This document shows, piece by piece, positions 23,203 to 57,139 of a stretch of 64,000 nt of DNA. The notes under the pieces were generated by a model, which saw only the letters and a list, made by a program, of their open reading frames with translations, was not told where the DNA came from and did no database searches. The translations under genes were made by a program, and so were the position numbers. This DNA comes from Chloracidobacterium validum (GTDB taxonomy: Bacteria > Acidobacteriota > Blastocatellia > Chloracidobacteriales > Chloracidobacteriaceae): assembly GCF_018304825.1 (NCBI RefSeq), contig NZ_CP072649.1, positions 682,001 to 746,000 on the forward strand, given 5' to 3'. Position 1 is the stretch's first letter; the number at the start of each line of letters is the position of its first letter.

Positions 23203-26200
23203 ATGATCGAACTTCCCAATTTGGCGCTGCGTTACCGGGTCGCCGTCCTGGCGGCGACGCTGTTGCTCATCGGCGTGGGCATCTGGGCCTTCCAGAACCT
23301 CAAGGTCGAGGCCTACCCGGACATCTCCGACACCGGCGTCGTGGTCATCACCCAATTTCCGGGCAATGCCGCCGAGGAAGTCGAGCAGCAAGTCACCATC
23401 CCCATCGAGCGGGCGCTCAACAACACTCCCAACGTCATTGCGCGCCGGTCACGGACGATCTTTGGCCTTTCGGTGGTCGAACTCACCTTTGACGACGGGG
23501 TTGATGACTACTTTGCCCGGCAACTCGTTCTGGAACGCCTGCGCGATGCCGAGCTGCCGGAAGGCGTCCAGCCCGGACTCGGGCCGCTGACTTCGGGCAT
23601 CGGCGAAATGTACCGCTACCGGTTGGATGGCCCGCAGGTCTCGGAAATGAAGCTGCGTGAGTTGCAAGACTGGGTGGTGCTGCCGCGCCTGCTGCAAGTG
23701 CCGGGGGTGGCGGATGTCGCCACGTTTGGCGGGCTGGTCAAGACCTACTTGGTCGAACTCGATCCCCTGAAGCTCGAAAAATTCGCGCTCACGGCCAAGC
23801 AGGTGGCCGATGCCATCAGCGCCAACAACCGCAATGCCGGCGGCGGCATCGTGGATAACCAGCAGCAGAGCCTCGTCGTCCGGGGCGTTGGACTGGTGCG
23901 TTCGCGGCAGGACATCGAACGCATCGTCATCGGGGCGTTTGATGGTGTACCGCTGTTTGTCCGCGATGTCGCGCGGGTGAGTGTCGCGCCGGCGCTCCAG
24001 ACCGGCATCTTTGGCTATGACGACGTGGTCGGGGGCGTCGAAGGGATTGTGCTGCTGCGGCGCTGGGAAAACCCAAGCGACACCTTGACGGCACTCAAAG
24101 CGGCCATTGCCGAACTCAATGCCCAGCTCGCGCCGCAGGGCGTGCAACTCGTGACCGTCTATGACCGGGGAGAGCTGGTCACGAATACGCTGCGGACGGT
24201 TTCGCGCACGCTGCTCGAAGGCCTCATCATCGTCACCCTGGTGTTGTTTTTCTTTCTGGGCGACGTTCGCGCGGCGTTGCTGACGGCGCTGACCATTCCG
24301 TTGTCGCTACTGTTTGCCTTCATTTGCCTCAAGGTGGCCGGGATTCCGGCCAATCTGCTCAGTCTCGGCGCGCTCGACTTTGGCATCATCGTGGATGGCA
24401 CGCTCGTCATGGTTGAGCATATCGTTCATCGCCTGGCCGGTGACGCCGGACGGCGGCGGAGCGTGCTGGAAGCCGTTCGACGGGCCGCGCTCGAAATTGA
24501 GCGCCCGATCTTCTTTTCGCTGGTGATTCTGATTTGCGCCTACTTGCCGCTGTTTACGATGGAGCGCGTGGAGTACCGGCTATTTGGCCCGATGGCCTTC
24601 ACCGTCTGTAGCGCCCTGCTCGGAACGCTCCTGCTTTCCCTGACGTTGACGCCCGTGCTGGCCAGCTACTGGTTCGGGCGCAGCGCCCGCGCCTGGGAAA
24701 ATCCCGTGGTGGCCTGGCTGCGCCGGGCTTATGGCGCGGCGCTCACCGTTACCCTGGCGCGGCCGCGGCTCACCGTCGCCGTGGCAACGGTGGTTGTCCT
24801 GGGCGGTCTCGGCGTCGGCTCGCGCCTGGGGTTGGAGTTTTTGCCGCAGCTCGATGAAGGCGTCATCTGGATTCGCGCCAACTTGCCGCCGGGCGTGTCA
24901 CTCACGGAGTCGGCCCGGACAGCCAGCCGCATGCGCGCCATCATTCGGGAGTTTCCAGAAGTCTCCCTCGTCATTTCGCAGAGTGGGCGCAACGACGACG
25001 GCACCGACCCCTTTGGCCCAAACCGCAACGAACTGCTCATCAACTTACATCCGTACGAAACCTGGACCTCCGGGCGAACCAAAGCCCAGCTCGTGGCGGA
25101 GATGTCACGTCGGTTGGAAAGCGCCATACCGGGCGCGACGTTTAACTTCACCCAGCCGATCATTGACACCTCAACCGAAATGGCGACCGGATCGAGCGCC
25201 GATTTGGCCATCATCATCCGGGGTCCAGACCTCAAGCAGTTGCGCGAATTGGCCAAGCAGGCACTAAGCGTAACCCGGCAGATTCCAGGCGCGGCCGACA
25301 CCTCCATCGAACAAGAGGCTGACCAGCCGCAACTCCGCCTGCGCGTCAATCGGGAAGAGGTGGCGCGCTATGGAATCAACGTCGCCGATGTCCAGGACCT
25401 CATCGAGCTGGCCGTGGGCGGGCGTCCGGTCGGCGTCGTATTTGAGGGCGAACGGCGTTTTGACATTGTCGTCCGCTATACACCGGATGCCCGCGCCAAT
25501 GCGGCGGCCATCGGCAAGCTGCTGGCCCCAACGGCCGATGGTGGGCGTGTGCCGCTCTCCCAACTGGCCGACATCGCCGTGGTGGAGGGAGCCAGCATCA
25601 TCGCCCGGCGTGAAAATCAACGGCAGATCACCGTGCGAACCAACATTCGCGGCCGCGACCAAGGTGGGTTCGTCAGTGAAGCGCAGGCGGCCTTTGCCAA
25701 GCAGGTGGTTCTACCGGAAGGTTACAGCGTCGAGTGGGGTGGGCAGTTTGAAAACCTCACCCGCGCCCGCGCCCGCCTGACGATTGTCTTGCCGGTGACG
25801 CTGGTACTCATTTTCGGTCTCTTGTTCCTGACGTTCGGGCGGGCGCGCGACGCCGCCATCGTTTTGGCGAGCGTTCCGTTCGCGCTTGTCGGTGGACTCG
25901 TCGCGCTGTGGCTGCGCGACATCAACCTGAGCGTCTCGGCGGCCGTGGGCTTCATTTCCCTGTTCGGCGTGGCGGTCATGAGCGGCGTCCTGATTGTGTC
26001 GGAAATCAACCGCCTGCGCGAAGCCGAAGGCCTCGCGGTCAACGAAGCCATTTTTACCGGCGCGCGCAATCAGATGCGCCCCGTGCTGATGATGCTGGTT
26101 GTCGCGTTGTTGGGTATGATTCCCGCCGCGCGCGCCGTCGGCATCGGCTCGGACGTGCAGCGTCCGCTCGCAACCGTGGTCGTGGGCGGCCTGTTTTCGG

Positions 26201-51931: not shown

Positions 51932-52744
51932 CTAAGCATTTCCGGCACGGGACTTGGCCGCGCGCGGGCGCGGCGCCGTGAGGTGCTGAACGAACATCCA
52001 CGCGATGACCAAGACCAGGAACGTGCTCGCCCACCCCATGGTCGTTTCGCCAATCCAGAACGTGACCGCGATGTTGAAGGCAAAAATCCCAAAATAGACG
52101 CCGAGCGGGGCAAGGCGCTGGCATGGGAACTCGAAGGCGCCACGCGGTGGGACGCGGCGCAGCCAAGTGGCGTCGAGCAGCCGAAACGTGGTCGTAATCA
52201 GTACGCCGACGATGAACCACCCAACGTAGTTTTCAATCGTCACGCCAAAATGCGGCCCGCCCTGCGGGTAGTAGTAAAGCTTCCCCAAAAACCACCGCTC
52301 GCCCTGAAGTGTGACCGGGTCAATCACGATGTCGAGCAGCATCATCAGCAGTCCCGCATACCCAATCGTCCACCACGACTGCCGGGCCGCGCGATCATCG
52401 GCCGCAGTCGGCCGGGGCGTCCACGGCAGGCGCAACAGGACGGCTGCTTCAAAACTGATGAACGACAAAAACGCAAACGACAGCGAGTCGAAAAAAGGGA
52501 CACCGGCCACCCACAACTCCCGGTCACTCGTCCGGTCAATGTAGTGATACAGCCCGAACGGAAACCCGTTGTGAATCGAACTCCACTCGCAGGCAAAGGC
52601 AATCAGGTAAGCCGTGACCGTCCAGACCAGCGTCCGCAGCCATCCCATCCGCGCCACGGCCAGAAACAGATAGGCCAGCAAAAACACGAAGACGTAGGGC
52701 CGGAGCGCCACCGTCCCGACGAGCAGTTGGAGCGTATCGGTCAT
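51932..52744 (-). CDS. cruF: Carotenoid 1',2'-hydratase, CruF type
   Basis: 270 residues, six to seven membrane helices, DUF422 family. Recognisable segments: YLIAFACEWSSIHNGFPFGL and YHYIDRTSD, GVPFFDSLSFAFLSFISFEA, MLLDIVIDPVTLQGERWFLG, and YYYPQGGPHFGVTIENYVGW. CruF adds water across the terminal double bond of gamma-carotene-type molecules, giving 1'-hydroxy carotenoids in green sulfur bacteria, cyanobacteria and phototrophic Acidobacteriota. Its ATG overlaps the stop of the upstream selenoprotein-like gene (ATGA), so its translation is probably coupled to UGA readthrough there. No other carotenoid gene is nearby. Confidence 0.85.
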   Translation of the reverse strand: MTDTLQLLVGTVALRPYVFVFLLAYLFLAVARMGWLRTLVWTVTAYLIAFACEWSSIHNGFPFGLYHYIDRTSDRELWVAGVPFFDSLSFAFLSFISFEAAVLLRLPWTPRPTAADDRAARQSWWTIGYAGLLMMLLDIVIDPVTLQGERWFLGKLYYYPQGGPHFGVTIENYVGWFIVGVLITTTFRLLDATWLRRVPPRGAFEFPCQRLAPLGVYFGIFAFNIAVTFWIGETTMGWASTFLVLVIAWMFVQHLTAPRPRAAKSRAGNA

Positions 52745-53472
52745 GGTTGAAAGTCGCGGATGAGCGGCAATGCCTCATCCGCCGTGAGCAAGTCCAACGC
52801 GGCCAGAATGACCCGCCGCTGGAGGGCCGGATCGTCCGGCGCGCCAAGCGGATACCCCAACGGAAAGGGCACCCAGAGCGCCCGCGGCGGACGTACCTTT
52901 TCGGTGACGAAACGGTAAAGCGAAATTGAAACTGTCACGATGCCTTCATTCTCGAATGCCGCTTGGATCAGTCCGACCGACTGATTGCACATCGGTCAGA
53001 CCGGGGTCAGCAGGGCCACATCCACTTCGTCGGTGCGTGCCTGGCGGGCTGCCTCCGGCGCGGTTCGGCTGATGAGTTCTCCGGGCTTGGCAATCGAACC
53101 GCAAAAGGACCAGGCCCGCGCGTTCAAGCGTCCGACAACCCCTTCCGAGACGAGTTCCTGAACGCGCGTGATGGGCAGCGCCAAGTTGGGATCGCGTTCA
53201 ATGCCCGTGTGATCAAACGACGGGCTGACGTGTCCGACCTTGAGCGCGGACAGGTCGCAGTCCGTCGGAATGATGCGAAACGAGGGATCACCGGCCAGCT
53301 TGAGGTCAAAGGTTGGTTGCGTCGGCAAGTGAAACGCGGCCGTCGTCACAAGACCGAGGTTGCAGTCGGCAAGTGGTTTGGCAAGCCGCGCCGGCTGCCA
53401 TTGGGAGGCGGTGTAGCGATACGCCCGCATGAACGACCGGACAAGCAGGCTGGCGTCGGCCAGTTCAGCCAT
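52741..53472 (-). CDS. Probable selenoprotein, GrdB/PrdB-like reductase family, with in-frame UGA at codon 159
   Basis: ATG 53472 opens a frame of 158 codons ending [10 protein letters not shown], then TGA (52998-52996), then in the same frame [20 protein letters not shown] to TAA/TGA at 52741. Both halves belong to one family: selenoprotein B-like proteins related to glycine/sarcosine/D-proline reductase, whose members carry U-P-x-C or C-P-x-C at exactly this point (…ALLTPV-U-PVC-QSVGL). Reading TGA as selenocysteine gives a 243-residue protein of normal length, with Sec159 and Cys162 as redox pair. A SECIS-like hairpin follows (see 52967-52985). [20 protein letters not shown] is the conserved C-terminal block. 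A simple nonsense mutation is the alternative. It is coupled to cruF downstream. Confidence 0.8.
52967..52985 (-). promoter_or_regulatory. Bacterial SECIS-like hairpin after the UGA codon
   Basis: In mRNA sense ATCAGTC-GGTCG-GACTGAT forms a perfect 7-bp stem with a 5-base loop that starts 18 nucleotides after the UGA. The loop begins with GG. Bacterial SECIS elements typically have an apical loop with a G in its first two positions located roughly 16-37 nucleotides after UGA. A competing 6-bp hairpin (gaccga/tcggtc) starts at the UGA itself. Confidence 0.6.
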
Positions 53473-53595
53473 AGATTGAAAGCTCCTTTAGCCAATCGGC
53501 GCTGCCAGACCGAGTGCGCGCGGCTGCGTCCCGATGACGTTCTCTATAGCATACTGAAGTGCACCCAGGACTGAAACCGGCGACGGTCACGGCCG

Positions 53596-54807
53596 TCAGC
53601 AGGTGGGACGGTCAGGCACCGGTTGGCGCGCAAAGAAGTCCACCCGGAAGCGCGCCATGTAATCGTTCAGCAAGTGCGTGATGCGGTCGTAACTGGGGGA
53701 TTTGACAATCAGGCCGGCATGAAAATCTTTGTTGAGCCGCCACGCGACTTCCGGGTCGTTGTAGGCGCTGGTATCTGGGCGTTCTTGCCGAGCCAGTGAA
53801 ATCAGAAGCCCGGCATAGTCCCGCCGGGGCGGTGGTGGCCGATAGCCTCCAAACGGCTCGGCGCATTCGAGCTTGGCCCACTCCGCCCAGAGGTTCACCC
53901 CGGTTGCCGCTTCGACCAGCTCAACGATGTTAGCGCCGCCCACCCGGGCTGAAGTCTCAAGGAAATAGTACGTGCCATCCGCGTGCGCCTTGATGAACTC
54001 AGTATGTGAAGCGCCACAGACCATGCCCATGGACTGAAGAACCCGCCGGTTGAGTTCCAGCAGTTGTTGTTCATCATCGGTGTCATGCTCGACGATGCGG
54101 GTGGCAAAGACATCACCATCGTGCATGACCTCGATTGGTGGGCGCGCGTACTTGCTCACGGCCGCAAACACGACTTCGCGCTCCGAAACAATCGAGTCCA
54201 CGTGATAGACATCGCCCGGAATGAACTTTTCCAGCAAGTGAAAGGAACGCCGGTCGCCTAGGCTTTCCAGTCTGGCCCACAGTTCATCCGGCGAGTTGAC
54301 GCGCTGGATACCAATCGTCGAAGCTTCCGAACGCGGCTTGACCAACCAGGGACCCGGTGTTTCGGCCACATACTCCCGCACCACCTCGTCGTTGAACACC
54401 GGCGTAAACGGCGGCGCCGGAACGCCATGCTCCCGCGCCTTGGCGCGCATGGCCAGCTTGTCGCGGAAATATCGGCCGGTGGTCTCCCCCATCCCCGGCA
54501 CGCGCAGGTGCTCGCGCAGGGCGGCCGCGGTTTCCACATCGAAGTCGTCCAACGCCACGATGCGGTCAATCCGGTGCGTTCGGGCCAAAAAGCTCACGCC
54601 GAGAATCACATCGTTGAGCCGCCACTTCTTGTTGTCATCCGGCATGAGAAAAATGTCGTCGAGACTTTCACGCGGCCAGTCAGCATTCTGGATACTTTCA
54701 GAGGTAACCAGATACACGCGCCACCCCTGGCGCTTGACCTCGCGCATGAACTCCGCGCCTTTTTCATAACTGGCCAGACACAGCATCGTAAGCGGACGAG
54801 TCGGCAT
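53596..54807 (-). CDS. ATP-grasp ligase-type enzyme
   Basis: 403 residues from ATG 54807 (MPTRPLTMLCLASYEKGAEF). An N-terminal Rossmann-like domain is followed by the ATP-grasp domain: RYFRDKLAMRAKAREHGVPA and PFTPVF, GPWLVKPRSEASTIGIQRVN, FHLLEKFIPGDVYHVDSIVS, and YYFLETSARVGGANIVELVE with the Glu and Asn/Arg-type metal and ATP ligands. It belongs to the carbamoyl-phosphate-synthase-L/biotin-carboxylase-like ATP-grasp group, which ligates a carboxylate to an amine or thiol. It is the last gene of a four-gene run after a PEP-synthase-like protein, an alpha/beta hydrolase and a thioredoxin-fold protein. Substrate unknown. Confidence 0.85.
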   Translation of the reverse strand: MPTRPLTMLCLASYEKGAEFMREVKRQGWRVYLVTSESIQNADWPRESLDDIFLMPDDNKKWRLNDVILGVSFLARTHRIDRIVALDDFDVETAAALREHLRVPGMGETTGRYFRDKLAMRAKAREHGVPAPPFTPVFNDEVVREYVAETPGPWLVKPRSEASTIGIQRVNSPDELWARLESLGDRRSFHLLEKFIPGDVYHVDSIVSEREVVFAAVSKYARPPIEVMHDGDVFATRIVEHDTDDEQQLLELNRRVLQSMGMVCGASHTEFIKAHADGTYYFLETSARVGGANIVELVEAATGVNLWAEWAKLECAEPFGGYRPPPPRRDYAGLLISLARQERPDTSAYNDPEVAWRLNKDFHAGLIVKSPSYDRITHLLNDYMARFRVDFFARQPVPDRPTC

Positions 54808-54868
54808 GAGTGAACGCTCCCCACAAAAGAAGTGAAACCATCGAGGCGTATGTACGGAAAGTGCATTC

Positions 54869-57139
54869 TTATTCGTGGGCTGGTGTTGACGCAAGGGATA
54901 CTGCACCAACCCCTGACTTGAGCACTTCAACTGCCCCCTCACTCGCTTGAACGCGAATGCGGTCCCCGGTCTGGATGACGCGCGTCACACCTCGCACATT
55001 CGTTACGGACGGCAGACCAAGCTCACGCAGCACAATTGAGCCATGCGACAGGTCGCCGCCGATCTCGACCACCACCCCGGCGACGGCAGCAAAGACTGGA
55101 ATCCAGCCGGCATCCACAGCTCGCGCAACCAGAATATACGGCTCGTCGGTGTCTCCCGGCGGCAGGGTCGGTGTGTCGCACACCCAAGCGCGCCCCTCGG
55201 CCGTGCCACGGGTCAATCCGATGCCCGGGAGGCGCTGACCAACCAAGTCACCGCCGGCCCGCGCGCGAATGAAGGCGGTAAAGTCATCAAAGCGCTGGAA
55301 GACATCCGGGAAGTCATACTCCGCAAACCGCGCCTGTTCCTCCCGGCGGGTCGCCAAAAAATCCGGCGTGACGCGCCACCCGCCATCGAGCCGTTTCAGC
55401 TCATCAACTTCCAACAACCAGACATCTTCCGCTGCCGGTAACGCTCCGGTAGCACAGGCCTGCTCCGCCAGGCGCTTCAGCCGCTGCCGGAGACGGTCGA
55501 AAGTTTGCATGGCGGCATGCCGCAGCCGCTCGCGCGCGTCAAGCGCCCGGCGCGCTTGCCACCACACCGGATACACCAGCCAGGCAAACCAAGGTAACGG
55601 TGGCGGCGTCAGTGCTCCGCGTGGAAGCCAGAGGCTGGCCAGCAATACCTCCGGCTGCTCGTGGTAACGCGGTTGGGCAATGTCACTTTCAAAGATGCCG
55701 CGAAAGCCATAGCGCGCGAGGTAGTCTTGCCAAAGCTGCCGAAAGGTTTCGTCATGTGGCAGGCCGCCCCGCCGGAGCACATCCACGACCGACGGGTGCG
55801 CTTGCACGTAATCCCGGAGCGGATCGAGGTCAGTCATCAGGCGTGTCGTAATGGTTTCATGACGCGCGGCCCATTCAGACAGGAGTCCCAAGCGCCGGAG
55901 CGCGGCCATGGGTCCGCTGATGGCCTGCGTGAGCGAAAACATTTCCCGCACGAGCGCCGTGTAAACGGTCTGCAAGTCGGTCAGGCAGGTGGTAAAGTTG
56001 TCTGAGTCAGACGCTTGGCCAACCTGAGCTAGCCAGGCAATCCGGTTTTGGGCCGAGCCAACCGATTGCAACTGTGCCCACCCTAATCTGACCAGCGCGC
56101 GCCATGACCGCCACAATCGCCCCCAGCGCAGCCCCTGGCCGAAAACGTCGCGTCCGCCAATGGCATCGGTGACCAAGCGCGTTGGAAGTCCCCACAACCG
56201 CATCATGTCGGCCAGTAGCGATAGGTTGATGAACGGCCGCCCGGCAAAAACCTCGATGAACGGACGATTCGCCGGCAAGCGCGCATCGAAGTCACGGTAG
56301 TAATCAAACAAATCCTGCGCACAGGAAGCAATCAGGCTTGTCATCAGGCGCGAGGGAAGCGGCGGCAGAATCTCCCGGTGATTGGCATAGGTGAACCACT
56401 CGTTGCGGGTCACTGGTTGGGTCAGCGGGCGCACCTGGAGTAACCAGCAGCGGCGGCCGTCATCGGCAAACTCGACATCCCAGTTGCCGCGACCAAAAAC
56501 CCGCCGAACGTCACGCAGCAACACCTGTAGTCGTCCCGCGAAACCGCTTTCCGTCGGCCCTTCAAAAGCGTTGATTTTTGGCAGGTTGCGGGTCTCGCCT
56601 GGCACTCGCCCACCAACGAGGTCATCAGCTAAACCTTCCGTGACATTGATCAAATCATCTTCATGGTCGGTTTCGGTGGCGGCAACGCCGGCCCAGCGGG
56701 CGTCCACCATGGCCATGACGATGACATCGCGCCGGTGCGGAGCTGCGTGCCGGAGACTCGAACACCAAACCTCGCACAGCGCGGTCGCCACGTCCTGGGG
56801 GGCGACGTTCAACACCGAATCGAAATACCCTGCCAGGCTTTTGGTTGCACCATCCTCGACGGCAAAGGCCGACCGGACGGCCAAGCGCGGCGACACCACC
56901 GGCAAGTTCAGGGCCCGCTCAAACGTGGCCACGTCGTGAAGGACGAAACGACCTTCGGCTGCTTGAAGCCATCCCTGGCGCAAGCTTTCGCCGAACAACT
57001 CATCTAGGACGATGAGGCCATCCGGCACGGGCAGCCCGGCCGCCGCGGCCCGGTCGAGAGAAGCTGCCTTTGGCCCAACGCCTAGGCGGGAACCCAAGGC
57101 AGCCCCAAGCCGGACAAAAAAACGTTCAGATTTCAGCAT
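54869..57139 (-). CDS. PEP-synthase/rifampicin-phosphotransferase-like dikinase
   Basis: 756 residues from ATG 57139 (TTG 57148 is possible). The N-terminal PPDK-type ATP-binding domain is seen in GVGPKAASLDRAAAAGLPVP and DGLIVLDE, LAVRSAFAVEDGATKSLAGY, VAATETDHEDDLINVTEGLA and FADDGRRCWLLQVRPLTQPV. A middle region of about 400 residues has no motif I know. The C-terminal mobile His domain contains VVEIGGDLSHGSIVLRELGL and PSVTNVRGVT with the phospho-carrier His. There is no PEP-binding TIM barrel, so the architecture is that of rifampicin phosphotransferase rather than PEP synthase: ATP phosphorylates His, which passes phosphate to a small molecule bound in the middle domain. It is preceded by a hydrolase-like gene whose stop is only five bases away. 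Confidence 0.82.
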   Translation of the reverse strand: MLKSERFFVRLGAALGSRLGVGPKAASLDRAAAAGLPVPDGLIVLDELFGESLRQGWLQAAEGRFVLHDVATFERALNLPVVSPRLAVRSAFAVEDGATKSLAGYFDSVLNVAPQDVATALCEVWCSSLRHAAPHRRDVIVMAMVDARWAGVAATETDHEDDLINVTEGLADDLVGGRVPGETRNLPKINAFEGPTESGFAGRLQVLLRDVRRVFGRGNWDVEFADDGRRCWLLQVRPLTQPVTRNEWFTYANHREILPPLPSRLMTSLIASCAQDLFDYYRDFDARLPANRPFIEVFAGRPFINLSLLADMMRLWGLPTRLVTDAIGGRDVFGQGLRWGRLWRSWRALVRLGWAQLQSVGSAQNRIAWLAQVGQASDSDNFTTCLTDLQTVYTALVREMFSLTQAISGPMAALRRLGLLSEWAARHETITTRLMTDLDPLRDYVQAHPSVVDVLRRGGLPHDETFRQLWQDYLARYGFRGIFESDIAQPRYHEQPEVLLASLWLPRGALTPPPLPWFAWLVYPVWWQARRALDARERLRHAAMQTFDRLRQRLKRLAEQACATGALPAAEDVWLLEVDELKRLDGGWRVTPDFLATRREEQARFAEYDFPDVFQRFDDFTAFIRARAGGDLVGQRLPGIGLTRGTAEGRAWVCDTPTLPPGDTDEPYILVARAVDAGWIPVFAAVAGVVVEIGGDLSHGSIVLRELGLPSVTNVRGVTRVIQTGDRIRVQASEGAVEVLKSGVGAVSLASTPAHE

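Follow-up and report, generated by a model that had tools for sequence, protein, structure and literature searches.

Selenoproteins of the PrdB type, with selenocysteine in a UxxC motif, are already known. Reviews list PrdB (TIGR04483) with this motif among the known selenoprotein families (PMC13188914; PMC9312934). A set of 42 Sargasso Sea sequences, listed as 'proline reductase PrdB' with UxxC, has been in print since 2005 (PMC1088965), and the counts given for the GOS survey are 235 Sec forms of PrdB and 110 Cys homologues (PMC2398784), which means that Cys forms of PrdB exist elsewhere. In the phylum of interest here, the Acidobacteria were credited with four selenoproteins of three families in 2006 (PMC1794560), and three known selenoproteins are given for one Acidobacteriota genome in 2025 (PMC12013277). 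The statement in the preliminary description of this DNA that selenoproteins of the lineage are not well described is thus fair in that little has been described, but it has to be qualified by these counts. In the open-licence literature on selenoproteins of Chloracidobacterium, Acidobacteria or Solibacter usitatus, nothing was evident on the PrdB-like gene considered below. What is new here is accordingly the Chloracidobacterium member of the type.

The window, that is, the whole stretch of 64,000 nucleotides that was analysed, lies within the smaller of the two contigs (1.00 Mb) of the 3.66-Mb genome. On its minus strand, a detail not given in the preliminary description, there is a frame of 243 codons whose single interruption is a TGA at codon 159, in the context LLTPV-U-PMCNQ (see the table for coordinates). 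The earlier claim of one frame running through the UGA with both halves continuous is therefore confirmed, and the expectation that annotation would yield two truncated genes is borne out by the standard-code ORF list, which splits the gene into 158 aa (52996-53472) and 83 aa (52741-52992). The gene very probably encodes a selenoprotein, as judged from its sequence and that of its relatives. We consider it highly likely that the best explanation is one 243-residue selenoprotein with Sec inserted at the UGA and a reductase-like redox domain, which is unlikely to be a D-proline or glycine reductase.

Features of the PrdB-like locus in the window, all on the minus strand
Feature	Position	Strand	Remarks
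PrdB-like selenoprotein gene (probable)	52741..53472	minus	243 residues with Sec159; ATG at 53472, terminal TGA 52743-52741
In-frame UGA, codon 159, putatively read as selenocysteine	52996..52998	minus	conserved at the same site in 7/7 genus genomes and 27/27 further near relatives
SECIS-like hairpin	52967..52985	minus	7-bp stem spanning +11 to +29 relative to the UGA; the loop (GGUCG) occupies +18 to +22
26-nt run identical across the 7 genus genomes	52967..52992	minus	sole invariant run of at least 15 nt in the gene
Cys162 codon	52987..52989	minus	completes the UxxC pair; predicted helix 162-175 begins here
GGAG, likely Shine-Dalgarno of the selenoprotein gene	53483..53486	minus	duplex -8.0 kcal/mol with an assumed anti-Shine-Dalgarno sequence
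CruF-like carotenoid gene	51932..52744	minus	PF04240 70.3 bits (cut-off 25); ATG overlaps the selenoprotein stop (ATGA)

As a check on chance, 1994 in-frame TGA triplets in the six frames of the window were screened. Of these, 27 are preceded by 100 or more open codons and followed by 80 or more, and 88 have a hairpin of comparable kind after them. Two triplets have both, the other one (23449-23451, minus) being antisense inside a 1085-residue plus-strand ORF.

The family search covered ten genomes, seven of the genus (the present one included) and three of other genera in its GTDB family. The gene was found in 7/7 genus genomes with exactly one internal TGA, and 0/3 of the others gave a match. 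In all seven, the frame is 729 nt long with the TGA as codon 159, the terminator is also TGA, and there is no frameshift and no further stop; the decay in sister strains that had been named as a possible objection is thus absent. The genus copies are 85-91% identical to the window protein. Pairwise differences among the seven at codon positions 1/2/3 amount to 311/255/1320 over the 158 codons before the UGA and to 149/52/643 over the 74 codons after the hairpin, and because they gather at position 3, both halves of the gene are seen at the sequence level to evolve as protein. The ten codons directly after the UGA hold just 12 pairwise differences in total. This low divergence, together with the identical run of 26 nt, is the expected trace of a signal overlaid on coding sequence.

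The machinery for selenocysteine is present in the genome. The tRNA-Sec scores 63.5 bits (gathering cut-off 47) and is called by ARAGORN as tRNA-SeC with anticodon TCA, and SelA, SelB and SelD score 506, 341 and 380 bits (cut-offs 268, 242 and 125), so that all four components for which a check had been suggested are found above curated cut-offs. A partial survey of other selenoproteins gave seven formate dehydrogenase-like matches with no internal stop, no match to a SelW-like protein at E up to 0.1, and a SelD gene with no internal stop. In a sample of 396 genomes from the phylum, SelA (E better than 1e-40) occurs in 62/64 genomes with a TGA-bearing match to the gene vs 190/332 without (Fisher P 2e-11, uncorrected for kinship). 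It also occurs in 34/38 genomes whose matches are all stop-free, and part of the association may therefore be a matter of lineage. The two TGA-bearing genomes without SelA are G111 (91% complete, 750 contigs) and G231 (77% complete). In two genomes of the same family but of other genera, G008 and G009, SelA is present without a match to the selenoprotein gene, and these presumably use Sec for something else.

We now consider the hairpin that follows the UGA, AUCAGUC-GGUCG-GACUGAU, in which +11 to +17 pair with +23 to +29. The preliminary description had placed it 18 nucleotides after the UGA; the 7-bp stem and the loop starting with GG hold, but the distance does not, as the stem begins at 11 nt and only the loop is at nt 18. 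In bacterial SECIS elements, a G is found among the first two loop bases, and a stem-loop of this kind after the UGA is what is seen here. Covariation was assessed with 39 sequences, namely the seven of the genus, 27 and five more, all chosen as U-type; four U-type rows with the stem absent at that place (L072, L073, L075 and L078) were left out. In this set, 98.5% of the cells are paired, with two-sided changes at 5/7 pairs, compared to 17-43% paired in a control with the partner displaced by one, two or three columns. A covariation score as high as the observed 0.394 occurred in 0/500 shuffles; the tally of additional pair types does not exceed that of the shuffles, 81/500 of which reach the observed count. 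At loop positions two and three, G and U are invariant in 39/39. Synonymous codon resampling gave a mean of 4.9/7 pairs vs 6.9 observed, with P per sequence of 0.006-0.304 over the 39 sequences and of 0.079 for the window's own hairpin.

Single-sequence folding energies were not significant (z of -1.28, -0.54 and 0.21 in three stretches that overlap), and once 3 nt of upstream sequence are added, the minimum-energy fold is a competing helix in which the UGA takes part. Scanning the entire window against Rfam at gathering thresholds gave no match. The case for the putative element rests on conservation and covariation, the energies being weak. With the ribosome at codon 159, SelB carrying Sec-tRNA-Sec would bind the hairpin that directly follows the UGA and selenocysteine would be inserted, an event to which the parts, the conservation and the covariation point.

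Another option is that the UGA is read through without selenocysteine, by a reassigned code or a near-cognate tRNA, since an in-frame UGA with coding on both sides would appear alike at first. However, the genome has the Sec machinery, and the gene's own terminator is UGA in 7/7 genus genomes, which indicates that UGA is not simply reassigned. In addition, a conserved Cys comes three residues later, in the UxxC spacing, and the covarying hairpin lies downstream of the codon. We thus find readthrough of this kind very improbable.

Concerning the family of the protein, TIGR04483 (PrdB of D-proline reductase) is the best match, with 115.5 bits and E 2.5e-33, where the cut-off is 300; when the genome was searched, the score was 109.3 bits, also below 300. 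The alignment covers residues 28-230 of 243 and 199/238 profile positions. The models for GrdH and GrdF give 37 and 32 bits, both below cut-off, and PF07355 and TIGR01918 give 18.6 (cut-off 22) and 29.6 (cut-off 65.45). With tblastn, identities to plasmid-borne annotated prdB are 29-33% in the best 20 rows of 24 records, and those to the annotated prdB of Terrisporobacter and Peptoclostridium are 32-33%. These sequence comparisons place the window protein in the GrdB/PrdB superfamily in the wide sense. The earlier label 'GrdB/PrdB-like' is thus apt as to wide kinship but not as to membership in either family, the scores being below the cut-offs and PrdA and GrdA not being found.

In comparison with PrdB, the window protein is similar in length and has the UxxC, but it scores far below the equivalog cut-off and its host genome is without detected PrdA. 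To protein B of glycine, sarcosine and betaine reductase (GrdB, GrdF and GrdH), the homology is weak, with window residues ~82-232 aligned to their C-terminal part. The UxxC is common to both, whereas those profiles are 431-435 long and GrdA was not found. With the PrdB-type selenoproteins of marine metagenomes, the window protein has in common the Sec in UxxC and the homology-based assignment to PrdB or PF07355, and the two are likely to belong to the same subgroup.

The possibility that the protein is a true PrdB of D-proline reductase, or a GrdB of glycine reductase, working with PrdA or GrdA, could be raised on the grounds that TIGR04483 is the best family and that identity to the annotated prdB of Terrisporobacter and Peptoclostridium is 32-33%. 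Against this stand the score far under 300, the best PrdA match in the genome of only 11.5 bits (E 0.129, cut-off 700), the lack of any GrdA match at E up to 1, and the fact that no gene family other than those overlapping the selenoprotein gene recurs in more than 3/20 distant loci. Because the partner subunits were not found, a D-proline or glycine reductase is unlikely; the window protein is probably neither PrdB nor GrdB in this strict sense, and we give the alternative very little weight.

An AF2 model was built from the 54-row alignment A4 with C replacing U. It has a mean pLDDT of 94.1 and a pTM of 0.93, and consists of one domain across the UGA site. A strand (152-156) leads to the Sec site and a helix (162-175) begins at Cys162, followed by three strands and two helices; in the model, a stop at the UGA would remove this helix and all that comes downstream. 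A search of the PDB by sequence gave no match for the single protein at E up to 1. The 54-row profile gave five chains at chance level, the best being the designed protein 7rmy_A (E 0.00076), with no stretch passing alone. The fold search gave nothing at or below E 0.001, and the best Z of VIA-align 2, 8.1 for a LacI-type regulator, possibly reflects just a common arrangement according to the warning of the tool, such that no fold was assigned.

That the UGA is a true stop, either in a decayed PrdB-like gene or between distinct genes, one of 158 residues and one of 83, agrees with the two ORFs of the standard-code list but is hardly credible in view of the single UGA without frameshift and the third-position-biased change in both halves in 7/7 genus genomes, the modelled domain running across the site, and the covarying hairpin. 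The reading as a UGA-encoded selenoprotein is instead supported by the machinery, the genus-wide single UGA, the hairpin and the one-domain model. Its product would consist of one alpha/beta domain, belonging to the GrdB/PrdB superfamily. On the basis of the motif and the model, Sec159 and Cys162, the latter at the start of the predicted helix, most likely act as the selenol/thiol redox pair of a reductase, which would act on a small substrate or a protein disulfide.

The spread of the gene was examined by searching the 396 phylum genomes with the 7-row alignment, and 102 of them gave a match. The 55 best-scoring rows have exactly one TGA each, and 35/35 of those inspected carry U at the site (three of the genus, L032-L058, L069, L070, L071, L074 and L077). 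In the near group inspected (L021-L027, L032-L058), it is U in 34/34. In a set of 20 lower-ranked loci, chosen to include both kinds and with L069, L070, L071, L074 and L077 among them, U occurs in 9, C in 4, S in 4, E in 2 and D in 1. At the sequence level, the site is thus Sec throughout the inspected near group and varies in distant relatives. The earlier claim of U or C at this position holds for U in the near group and for C in 4 of the 11 stop-free distant relatives that were inspected, but not as an exclusive rule, because the remaining seven have S (4), E (2) or D (1).

Some variants among the distant relatives can also be mentioned. One of them, L072 (G216:C91:14400-16100), has two in-frame TGAs, with UPIU replacing UPxC, and its sequence makes a double selenoprotein possible. 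In L073, L075 and L078 and in L065, L068 and L076, there is one extra residue inside the motif (UPxVC or CPETC), and in the U-type relatives with UPxVC the stem is absent at the usual place. The relatives in which S, E or D replaces Sec are L059, L060, L062-L064, L066 and L067, and their sequences suggest paralogues without the redox pair.

Next to the gene lies the CruF-like gene, which starts inside the terminal stop of the selenoprotein gene (ATGA) in 7/7 genus genomes, the six other copies being 76-80% identical to that of the window. Overlaps of this type occur frequently in bacterial operons. With the assumed anti-Shine-Dalgarno sequence, no pairing was found upstream of the CruF-like ATG in 7/7 genus genomes (0.3 to 0.5 kcal/mol), and the selenoprotein start has such pairing in 6/7 (-8.0 to -10.8 kcal/mol; -2.5 in L027).

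CruF is found beside the gene in 7/7 genus loci, used as a control, and in 0/20 distant loci from other genera of the phylum, where all ORFs and tblastn were considered. The larger ORF clusters at the distant loci are mostly shadow frames, with 16/17 and 13/15 members overlapping the selenoprotein gene. In five scanned loci, the neighbours are a xanthine/uracil permease (2), an esterase-like protein (1), a methyltransferase (1) and one without a match. An ATP-grasp gene (window 53596-54942) lies upstream of the selenoprotein gene in 1/7 genus loci, the window's own, with 1.5 kb flanks considered, so the upstream side differs between species.

On the basis of the ATGA overlap in 7/7 and the lack of a visible Shine-Dalgarno, one can speculate that selenium status gates carotenoid synthesis in Chloracidobacterium, with mainly the Sec-inserting ribosomes reaching the CruF-like gene and reinitiating there. 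We regard this as rather unlikely, and put it forward as a proposal. If translation of the two genes were coupled, a lack of selenium would lower CruF, and if the gating were true, stopping at the UGA under selenium shortage would be a switch for the downstream gene.

In the selenoprotein literature examined, no substrate was found for PrdB-like proteins lacking PrdA, and a genome without detected PrdA and GrdA is a good place to seek one. The sampled Acidobacteriota relatives form a group with a common UPxC site and a covarying hairpin, and Chloracidobacterium gains a well-supported selenoprotein that standard-code ORF listing would otherwise break in two.
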